Part shown: positions 7,590-31,095 of the stretch, piece after piece
How the letters are laid out: each line of letters begins with the position of its first letter
How positions within the stretch are numbered: position 1 is the stretch's first letter
Assembly: GCA_003139775.1 (NCBI GenBank)
Contig: PLGI01000011.1
Location: 6,161 to 38,582, forward strand
DNA from: Syntrophaceae bacterium
Lineage (GTDB): Bacteria > Desulfobacterota > Syntrophia > Syntrophales > Smithellaceae
Reading direction: 5' to 3'
Length of the DNA: 32,422 nucleotides
The notes under the pieces: generated by a model
Database searches by the model: none
What the model was told of the DNA's origin: nothing
What the model saw: only the letters and a program-made list of their open reading frames with translations
Translations under genes and position numbers: made by a program

Positions 7590-7704
7590 TCTACTCTTCG
7601 GGGATAATGTTTAACTGCCGCAACATACCGCACCCATAAATACCATGATTAATAATATTACCTCGACACTCTAATATCAAGTAAATTCGGCTTCTGCTTA
7701 ATAT

Positions 7705-7757
7705 CAATCCCACGGCTTGGAATCCCCCCGCTCCAGCCGTATGGGGCTCCACTTTTT
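7705..7757 (+). repeat. IS200/IS605-end-like / terminator-like hairpin module (R11)
   Basis: TCAATCCCACGGCTTGGAATCCCCCCGCTCCAGCCGTATGGGGCTCCACTTTTT, related to 1671-1770 and to the minus strand of 26709-26885. Confidence 0.55.
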
Positions 7758-26489: not shown

Positions 26490-26705
26490 ATGAGCATAGA
26501 AATAAAAGCACCCATGACCGGAAAAATCGTCAGTATCGTTGTTAATTTGGGCGACAAGGTCAATGCTGAAGACGAAGTCATCATCATGGACGCCATGAAA
26601 ATGGAAATTCCCATATATGCGCCCGCCGAGGGAACGGTGAAAGAAATAAATGTCAAAGAAGGCGACTCCGTAAAAACGGATCAAGTTCTGATGACCCTTG
26701 ATTAA
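26490..26705 (+). CDS. Stand-alone biotinyl/lipoyl carrier domain protein (71 aa)
   Basis: IEIKAPMTGKIVSIVVNLGDKVNAEDEVIIMDAMKMEIPIYAPAEGTVKEINVKEGDSVKTDQVLMTLD; biotinylation motif DAMKME; AAGGAG upstream of ATG at 26490. Confidence 0.92.
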   Translation: MSIEIKAPMTGKIVSIVVNLGDKVNAEDEVIIMDAMKMEIPIYAPAEGTVKEINVKEGDSVKTDQVLMTLD

Positions 26706-26885
26706 AAAAGTGGAGCCCCCTCCGGCAGGAGCCGGATGCTCCCTACAATAATGAGACCCAAGCTTCAGAAACGAAGTGCATTGAAGTTTGCAGGTCGAAT
26801 TATCCCACAAAGCAGAGGATAACGCGACCTCCCGCGAGTTACGGCGCATTCCTCCCACGGCTGGAGTTGGGGGATTCCAAGTTGC
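26706..26885 (-). repeat. Composite hairpin repeat, copy R5
   Basis: 32-nt hairpin 26759-26790; minus strand carries GGTCGCGTTATCCTCTGC...GGGATAATTCGACC as in R2; flanked by GGAGCCCCCTCCGGCAGGAGCCGGATGCTCC and a minus-strand GAATCCCCCAACTCCAGCCGTGGGAGGAATGCG module. Confidence 0.85.
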
Positions 26886-26990
26886 GGGATAGATACTCCT
26901 TCGGCGGCAGTGGACTTTGTAATAATTAGATAGGATGAATAGATCAACCATCAAAAAGCAATATTTTACCAATACAACAAGGATTGAACC

Positions 26991-29075: not shown

Positions 29076-29105
29076 ATCACGGGTATGAAACCCCAAAGCA
29101 AGCAC
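29076..29105 (+). repeat. Hairpin repeat family, terminal fragment R9
   Basis: ATCACGGGTATGAAACCCCAAAGCAAGCAC; same terminus as R3 on the minus strand (AATCACAGGTATAAACCCCAAAGCAAGC). Confidence 0.65.
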
Positions 29106-29119
29106 TGAAAAGTCATCTA

Positions 29120-30982
29120 TTACTTAACATAACCGGCAATACCTTCAAACCGGTATCTTTTTTTATTAATCTTTCCTCCCTGGAGATCTGTTGAATAAAA
29201 ATAATGTTCCGTTTTCGAATTATACCACCTGTAAAGCTCTCTGGTATTTGTCAATCTGGATGTCGCGATGTTGCCTATCGAACCTTCAAATATGTATCCC
29301 TGAAGATTCTTGCCGCCGCCCGTTATATTATAATGGTAAAAGTGATCTTTTTTTTGCGGACTATACCAACGATAGAAACTGGTCGTCCCCGGAGTTTCCG
29401 GCTTAAAAAGCCGAAAAGCAATGCCTTCCTTTACGTAATGATTTTGACTTAATCTCTTTGTTTCTGATTGAGGATTGGCCGTAAACAAATAATCAGTTCC
29501 ATTGTAATACCTGTAAATATCAATAACCTTAACTGTATTATCGGGAACTATTTCCGCGAAGACTTCGACAATTCCCTCACCGCCATTGGTATCAAATACA
29601 ATATAATCCGCATAACAACCTGGCGTCATTTGTCCCGTATTTAAGGTAACTCTAAGATAATTGGTTTGACTGGTTGTCGCGCCGGAATTAGGCACAATGT
29701 TTATACTGCCGGCAGGAAGATAAAAAATGTTTTCTCCTAATATTTTTACGCCTTCAAATACCAAACGGCTATCCTTACTGATAATAGTAAGAACATGGGG
29801 TCCGTCAGTAAGTCCTTCCGCAACCAGTAATTCCCCTTTTTTTTCTTTCAGGTCGGCAAACAATTCACTATCATCAATTATAGTTTTATCAAGATATGCG
29901 GTTAAATTGACTTCGTCAGGATAAGTCAATAAATACAGAATTATTCCTTTTCCGCGAAAGTTAATTTTAATAAAGTTCTCCCCTTCCGCGCCCGAAGGAT
30001 AACCATTACTTTCCGTCCAGTTGCCCGTTAATTCCACGGTTTCTTTCAAATATTTGGGCACGGTATAAACTCCGTTTCCCCGCGCATCTTCATTGACAAA
30101 CGATATATATCTACCTTTTTTAAAATTGGCCGGTTCCTCTTTAATTTCATGTTTTTGCGCCGCCACCGACCATGTCAACATTTCTTTACCACTGTTGGTC
30201 ACCATTATCTTTTTGGAAACAGTTTTCTCCGGTAAAATACTGCCCATATCCAATCTTAAAGGATTCAAATTGATCAAAGGAGATTTTCGAGTATAAACTA
30301 TTATAAACGTGACAAAGATTGTTCTTGACCCGCCTTCAAAGTTAATTTTAATTGCTTCTTTATGAGTACCTGCCGGAAATTCCTTATGGCAGATAAGCTT
30401 TTCACTACCAGCTTCTAGTGTCATCTCTACATTGTGAATTGCAATTTTAGAGCTACTGTCATTTAATAATGATTTAACGGGCAGTAACCGAATTTCAACA
30501 CGCAAAGAATCAGTGTTGTTTTCTAACACGCCCGATAACTTCTGTTCTTCTAATTTCTTCCACCCTTCCGGTCCATCTGTCGACCAATCAATGTTGCCTG
30601 AACCCATATTCTTTAATGTAAATATTCCTTCACCGGATTTGTCGGCATTGATTTTTCCTACATTAATCTCCCTCGGCGTTATTGTCAGCACCGGCCATAA
30701 ATGCTCCCCATCCTTGTTTACAGTGCTTTGAACTTTTTGCTTAATAATTTTATTTTGTTCTGGATTTATATTATTTTGAGCGACAGTTATAAATGGATAA
30801 ACAATCAGCGCGAAAATAATCACGGGTATGAATTTTAAAACAAGCTTTGGAAACAATTCCGCAGCAAACTGCAATGTATTAAACCCTCCGCTTCGCGGGA
30901 TTGTTCGACTTACAAATTTCAATGCACTTCGTTTTTGAAATTTGAGTCTCACAGTAAAGATAAAATTATTCTTTATCTTCAA
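29120..30982 (-). CDS. Exported/surface protein with ASH/DUF1573-like domains and C-terminal DUF5648-like repeats
   Basis: LTITPREINVGKINADKSGEGIFTLKNMGSGNIDWS and LNPLRLDMGSILPEKTVSKKIMVTNSGKEMLTWSV; C-terminal VIDIYRYYNGTDYLFTANPQSE...FYRWYSPQKKDHFYHYN...LYRWYNSKTEHYFYST. N-terminus includes repeat-derived sequence. Confidence 0.75.
   Translation of the reverse strand: MKIKNNFIFTVRLKFQKRSALKFVSRTIPRSGGFNTLQFAAELFPKLVLKFIPVIIFALIVYPFITVAQNNINPEQNKIIKQKVQSTVNKDGEHLWPVLTITPREINVGKINADKSGEGIFTLKNMGSGNIDWSTDGPEGWKKLEEQKLSGVLENNTDSLRVEIRLLPVKSLLNDSSSKIAIHNVEMTLEAGSEKLICHKEFPAGTHKEAIKINFEGGSRTIFVTFIIVYTRKSPLINLNPLRLDMGSILPEKTVSKKIMVTNSGKEMLTWSVAAQKHEIKEEPANFKKGRYISFVNEDARGNGVYTVPKYLKETVELTGNWTESNGYPSGAEGENFIKINFRGKGIILYLLTYPDEVNLTAYLDKTIIDDSELFADLKEKKGELLVAEGLTDGPHVLTIISKDSRLVFEGVKILGENIFYLPAGSINIVPNSGATTSQTNYLRVTLNTGQMTPGCYADYIVFDTNGGEGIVEVFAEIVPDNTVKVIDIYRYYNGTDYLFTANPQSETKRLSQNHYVKEGIAFRLFKPETPGTTSFYRWYSPQKKDHFYHYNITGGGKNLQGYIFEGSIGNIATSRLTNTRELYRWYNSKTEHYFYSTDLQGGKINKKRYRFEGIAGYVK
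30821..30952 (+). repeat. Hairpin repeat family, copy R6, inside the 5' end of CDS 29120-30982
   Basis: AATCACGGGTATGAA..., CCCTCCGCTTCGCGGGATTGTTCGACTTAC and 32-nt hairpin 30913-30944 (CAAATTTC...GAAATTTG). Confidence 0.88.
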
Positions 30983-31005
30983 TATAAATACCTCTTTTTA
31001 AAAAA

Positions 31006-31095
31006 TAATCACGGGTATTAAACCTCCGCTTCGCGGGATTGTTCAACTTACCAATCCGTTACGCTGCGCTTTCGGAATTGGAGTTTCATAATAAT
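31006..31095 (+). repeat. Hairpin repeat family, copy R7
   Basis: AATCACGGGTATTAAACCTCCGCTTCGCGGGATTGTTCAACTTACCAATCCG...CGGAATTGGAGTTTCA; 31-nt hairpin 31051-31081. Confidence 0.88.

Follow-up and report, generated by a model that had tools for sequence, protein, structure and literature searches.

Palindromic repeats that lie in frame in coding sequence are known best from Rickettsia, where the inserts are in mature proteins. The palindromic elements of Rickettsia and Wolbachia are about 105-150 bp in length, have an open frame and are found in frame in unrelated genes (PMC2229807, PMC10969869), and for the Rickettsia element in gmk the fused product is made and is active (PMC2229807). The only case that our literature searches on repeats in signal peptides found is that of the Yersinia RU-2/YPAL element, which is part of one predicted signal peptide, that of YPO1552 (Delihas 2007, PMC2759123). 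REPs are reported to be mostly intergenic (PMC8266576), and some of the classical bacterial MITEs have open frames fused to genes (PMC2229807).

The element discussed here lies within the leader of a predicted secreted protein, in a 32,422-nt stretch of a Syntrophaceae genome that was analysed as a whole and is referred to as the window. It resembles the Rickettsia palindromic elements (RPE) in being a short palindromic repeat present in many copies, and in lying in frame in pre-existing protein genes that have element-free orthologs. It differs from the Rickettsia and Wolbachia elements in that its family is found in Syntrophaceae and Smithella relatives with sites that are mostly cleaved leaders, and from RPE in having internal hairpins with no terminal inverted repeat seen. 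NCBIfam includes RPE models, and the element peptides matched no NCBIfam model at E values up to 10, with none for RPE peptide families. We would regard RPE as the closest analogue in behaviour, and the parallel with Rickettsia drawn in the first-pass annotation holds for mode of action, the NCBIfam comparison giving no sign of a relation by descent.

The Yersinia case concerns one putative exported protein with a leader built by fusion, whereas in the present family pre-existing leaders are interrupted in frame, with empty sites, about 16 genes being affected and the element lying in either orientation. High copy number, hairpins and, in most of 46 copies, a fixed left motif are shared with REP/BIME and IS200/IS605-type (TnpA-REP) elements, and the present element may be compatible with there being no target duplication, as in those elements. 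However the GTAG motif typical of REPs is not evident, and a Y1 transposase of the source genome was rejected as the mobiliser, as neither of its two Y1 genes has element ends within 1.5 kb, which also sets the family apart from TnpA-REP systems. Like the MITEs (ERIC, NEMIS, RUP) the element is short and non-autonomous, but neither terminal inverted repeats nor a TA duplication were seen; its ends, GTGAGACTC and CATACCCGTG, are not complementary and the hairpin is internal.

An insertion in the leader of a predicted secreted protein

The features of the locus are as follows.

29120-30982, minus strand: open reading frame of 620 aa (the window gene), a predicted conserved secreted protein with the element in its leader, from ORF reading, Pfam and orthologs
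30991-30995, minus strand: AGAGG ribosome-binding site of the ancestral start, read directly and conserved in L033, L008 and others
30953-30982, minus strand: ancestral TTG start and native n-part MKIKNNFIFT, with the same ATA-TTG start in orthologs
30821-30952, minus strand: element copy of 132 nt that lies in frame within the signal peptide, assigned from the repeat family and the empty site in L033
30907-30948, minus strand: left hairpin with a 14-pair stem (30948-30935 with 30922-30907), from a fold z of -2.8 and covariation
30872-30874, minus strand: rival internal TTG start, in frame, with GGAGG at 30885-30889, both supplied by the element
30818-30820, minus strand: ATT at the right end, either element end or target duplication, from the 3-nt excess over the empty site and flank conservation
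30776-30832, minus strand: rebuilt hydrophobic core, FIPVI plus IFALIVYPFITVAQ, the first five residues being element-encoded
31010-31089, minus strand: second, short element copy of 80 nt in the 5' UTR, lineage-specific, with an empty site in L033

The product of the window gene has a C-terminal DUF5648 (Pfam E 5e-18) and an Ig-like/BACON-like region with weak matches only. There are matches to the protein in 57 of 60 related genomes, and no PDB homologs were found. Those relatives that have names are Syntrophaceae, Smithella and a deltaproteobacterial MAG, which places the host in this syntroph lineage. A search of the window with Rfam 15 at the gathering threshold gave four tRNAs and no other structured RNA family.

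The N-terminus of the protein reads MKIKNNFIFT, then VRLKFQKRSALKFVSRTIPRSGGFNTLQFAAELFPKLVLKFIPVI, then IFALIVYPFITVAQ. The first-pass annotation had proposed that the repeat lies in frame between the start and the hydrophobic core, and the reading frame, with 45 codons of repeat, bears this out. The copy extends from GTGAGACTC at 30952 through CCCGTG at 30821, and together with the trailing ATT it accounts for the 45 codons, VRLKFQ...FIPVI, the encoded residues being strongly cationic (9 K+R and 1 D+E). The proposed 3' boundary had to be moved, as FIPVI, which had been taken as the first five residues of the signal-like segment, is also encoded by the repeat. Entry into the n-region with preservation of frame had also been proposed; the frame is indeed preserved, but the site is the n/h boundary, with the hydrophobic core split and then rebuilt. 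The strongest hydrophobic 12-mer of the leader is FIPVIIFALIVY, with a mean hydropathy of 2.89.

We read 29 other orthologous loci, including L025 which is interrupted by N close to its start, and none has the element in the leader. Typical element-free leaders are MLKIKNYFIFIIFALIVYPFATFAQ (L033) and MSKIKNYFIFTLIALIVCPFIAFAQ (L008), and the ATA-TTG start arrangement in the element-free orthologs L009 and L011 is identical to that of the window gene. The closest ortholog, L033, has clean empty sites for both the leader copy and the 5' UTR copy. Once the two elements are taken out, the alignment of the window with L033 crosses both junctions and spans 581 nt (81.6% identity, 13 gap columns), whereas with the elements kept the best local match is only 203 nt. 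There are three extra bases at the leader site relative to L033, making the net gain 135 nt or 45 codons, and it is because this is a multiple of three that the frame is kept. At this site a 3-nt target duplication and an element ending in ATT give the same sequence. The hypothesis that the segment is ancestral is ruled out by its absence from the leaders of the inspected orthologs, and on this comparison the window gene already had its predicted signal peptide when the repeat entered it in frame, the insertion being specific to the lineage.

A remnant of the element right end, GCTTTGGGGTTTCATACCCGTGAT, is present at 29078-29103, directly past the stop codon of the window gene.

The element family and its recurrence in other genes

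The 15-nt core CCCGCGAAGCGGAGG has 128 matches with 2 mismatches or fewer in the 3.4-Mb genome, as against 7 for a reversed-pattern control, so that the repeat is well beyond chance. Core matches inside the ordinary genes L054, L093 and L096 were attributed to chance and discarded. Among 46 copies of GTGAGACTCAAATTT type, TTTATT forms the left flank (T37 T42 T39 A36 T45 T41 of 46), and CCCGTG lies at the right end with ATT next to it (41/44/41 of 46). The TTTATT target encodes Phe-Ile when read on one strand and Asn-Lys when read on the opposite strand. The most frequent full form has 108 nt, or with the ATT 111 nt and 37 codons, and its consensus has one forward and one reverse frame free of stops. 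A stop-free forward frame and a length that is a multiple of three are combined in 19 of the 46 GTGAGACTCAAATTT-type copies but in only 2 of 46 in other subfamilies, although in GTGAAACTCCAATT copies it is another frame that is open, namely that of the OEP and GspD insertions. The left hairpin shows covariation, with 47 cells changed on both sides as against 14 in shuffles (0/500), and the signal is lost when the pairing partners are slid. One covarying pair, columns 5 and 46 (G-C or A-T), determines whether the main forward frame has CGA or the stop TGA.

There is also a second, longer composite repeat, at 26705-26895, 1956-2100 and 7702-7757 of the window and on many other contigs. It is made up of GTGGAGCCCCCTCCGGCAGGAGCCGG ... 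CCTCCCGCGGG ... GGGGGATTCCAA..CGCGGGATT, and has the GTCGAATTAT-CCCGCGAAGCAGAGG core in common with the element while the ends are different. In L046, L052, L057, L060 and others a module lies inside the left hairpin of another, in the arrangement TGAAACTCCAATT[TAATGAGACTC...GTCGAATTAT...], and the nesting suggests repeated insertion of the family into itself.

The element peptide was searched against the source genome and 21 relatives, and the antisense-frame peptide against 13 genomes; the ORFs were read and their gene families assigned by Pfam. About 16 unrelated genes, 5 of them in the source genome, have a copy in frame in the predicted cleaved export leader. The copies in forward orientation are, in the source genome, in the window gene, LptE, OEP/TolC and GspD, and in the relatives in L105, a papain-RHS protein (L106 and L107, the insertion being common to the two species), TPR proteins L108 and L109, MlaA (L110), LptA (L111), L131, an NlpC/P60 lipoprotein (L148) and a periplasmic-binding lipoprotein (L149). 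Those in reverse orientation are in GspK (source genome), an M16 peptidase (L177) and a patatin lipoprotein (L121). The count includes L108 and L148, which are flagged as having no clear native start ahead of the element, while L144 and the LEA_2 lipoprotein L090 are outside the count, their native start being unclear. We set aside L127, L129, L132, L134, L143 and L150, with the element upstream of the native start, and L133, L076 and L096, with the element at the C-terminal end.

Leader anatomy is uniform, with the native start and a short n-part followed by the cationic element peptide and one hydrophobic core. The element peptide has 5-11 K+R and 0-3 D+E in each case, with no hydrophobic stretch before it, and the core 3' of the element includes the element-encoded FIPVI in most forward cases. 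LptE of the source genome has MRKQNRRLFI, the element and then KIGIICFFFAILFGC, whereas its relatives lack the element, as in the leader MKKQNWRLLKVGTICLFFTILFGC of L230. The GspK prepilin leader has an in-frame element in 5 species, while 8 others have an empty site, for example L265 with MKKLFHNNRG^IALI; across the 5 species the inserts vary in length and have nested modules, and frame is always kept. GspK leaders are cut by prepilin peptidase and not by signal peptidase, and the same tolerance would therefore apply in two processing systems. The empty-site comparison covered three leader genes and one case of internal insertion, and the remaining leader assignments rest on anatomy.

In GspK of L067 (6850-8097) and its orthologs L260, L262, L269 and L271, the inserts give leaders of roughly 30-85 residues.

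Reverse-orientation copies are also found at the N-terminus of proteins with no cleaved leader: an OppC-like permease (L194), an Mrp-type ATPase (L174), RimO in four species, and PepP in the source genome and L216. For RimO of L206, L215, L122 and L152 the N-terminus is element-derived, directly after a TTG that overlaps the stop codon of the gene upstream. Mature proteins rarely contain an in-frame copy, with 3 seen. Two are independent insertions in a glycosyltransferase-DUF4922 protein, the empty ortholog for the site in L116 being L066, which has its own copy elsewhere in the gene. The third, in a YgiQ-like radical SAM protein, occupies one and the same position in two genera (L213 and L155), and we regard it as an old insertion in a mature protein.

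The bias towards leaders

In-frame TTT-ATT occurs 8 times in leaders and 171 times elsewhere in the sampled ORFs of the source genome, making it about 3 times denser in leaders. With equal tolerance about 4.5% of forward insertions would be expected in leaders, whereas 13 of 14 were observed there (11 of 12 without two uncertain cases), for a nominal P of about 4e-17 that is indicative only, because the leader predictor is rough and open-frame searches are blind to disrupted genes. Target preference was rejected as the sole cause, as a threefold density is too small to give 13 of 14. Within the element, L106 and L107 differ by 4 nonsynonymous and no synonymous changes in 37 codons, and the YgiQ pair by 6 and 1 respectively, and this is consistent with survivorship, the element codons drifting without constraint and the frame alone being kept. 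Survivorship is apparently the simplest account of the bias, the insert being tolerated because the leader is cut off and discarded.

The following course of events is in our view probable. The mobile element, small, non-autonomous and with hairpins inside it, inserted 3' of a TTTATT-like site, which in the window gene was in the codons for Phe-Ile where the n- and h-regions of the signal peptide meet, and it added 135 nt in a frame that is one of its few without stops. Translation would begin at the old start and pass through the element to give a signal peptide with a 45-residue cationic insert, the last codons of the element (FIPVI) rebuilding the hydrophobic core. Export would be normal, and signal peptidase would remove the whole leader and leave the mature protein unchanged. 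With such tolerance in leaders, in-frame copies would survive mainly in cleaved export leaders. It is a point against this explanation that an n-region of 50 residues is long.

It is also possible, although we lean the other way, that target choice and coding frames jointly suit the element to cleavable leader peptides. TTTATT would provide Phe-Ile, as in a hydrophobic core, in one direction and Asn-Lys, as in an n-region, in the other, and the stop-free frames would encode a cationic spacer, with the forward one ending in the hydrophobic FIPVI, so that insertion into a leader might be near neutral at birth. If so, the element would have in leaders a safe harbour within coding sequence and would naturally give rise to extended signal peptides.

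The survivorship account is of interest as, in a syntroph lineage, an element with no apparent relation to those of Rickettsia would survive mostly in the cleaved part of exported proteins, and the genes affected include some on which outer-membrane assembly (LptE, LptA) and type II secretion (GspD, GspK) normally depend. It offers a testable rule for where selfish DNA enters genes without killing them, and the affected genes are a natural series of long cationic leaders for probing the limits of the Sec and prepilin pathways.

Translation of the insert and other explanations

In the window gene the element supplies GGAGG (30885-30889) and an in-frame TTG (30874-30872), and it is conceivable, if rather unlikely, that translation starts there to give MQFAAELFPKLVLKFIPVIIFALIVYPFITVAQ, a reasonable leader with a signal peptide of normal length, so that the repeat would replace the old start instead of extending the n-region. 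Internal starts with some ribosome-binding match are indeed present in LptE (an ATG at the junction), L148 (where the element supplies GGAGG plus ATG), GspD, OEP and L105. However the old start of the window gene (TTG 30982), its AGAGG and its frame are all intact, and L106, L109, L110, L111, L131 and L177 lack an internal start having a ribosome-binding match. In RimO of L152 there is no in-frame ATG, GTG or TTG from the beginning of the element up to the conserved KVRIISLGCPKN, and the TTG overlapping the upstream stop, with read-through, is therefore the only ordinary option there; the internal insertions in mature proteins require read-through as well. In the window gene we rank read-through from 30982 as more likely than a start at TTG 30874. 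In some leader genes the insert may be only partly translated, given the element-supplied starts in the window gene and L148 and the lack of a clear native start in L108. The leader insertions call for caution in the annotation of start sites and signal peptides in the genomes concerned.

An adaptive role, in which the insert usefully alters export or expression through a longer cationic n-region or mRNA hairpins and is positively selected, might be argued from the leader insertion in GspK of 5 species, and from the insertions in papain-RHS (2 species) and RimO (4 species), but we think it very improbable, as the element codons vary freely (4:0 and 6:1, nonsynonymous to synonymous, in the L106/L107 and YgiQ pairs) in the manner of a tolerated spacer. 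The genome is a 206-contig draft in which misjoins are possible at repeats, but an assembly or binning artefact, or a dying gene, is scarcely credible, as L033 has the two flanks in one contiguous stretch, which speaks against misassembly, the ORF is intact over 620 codons and the same pattern is present in independent genomes.

A 20-mer, GAGGTGCATTTTCGAGTGAAA, precedes both L108 (near 2450) and lptE at L237, both in genome G004, and is possibly a shared ribosome-binding and start module carried by another repeat.
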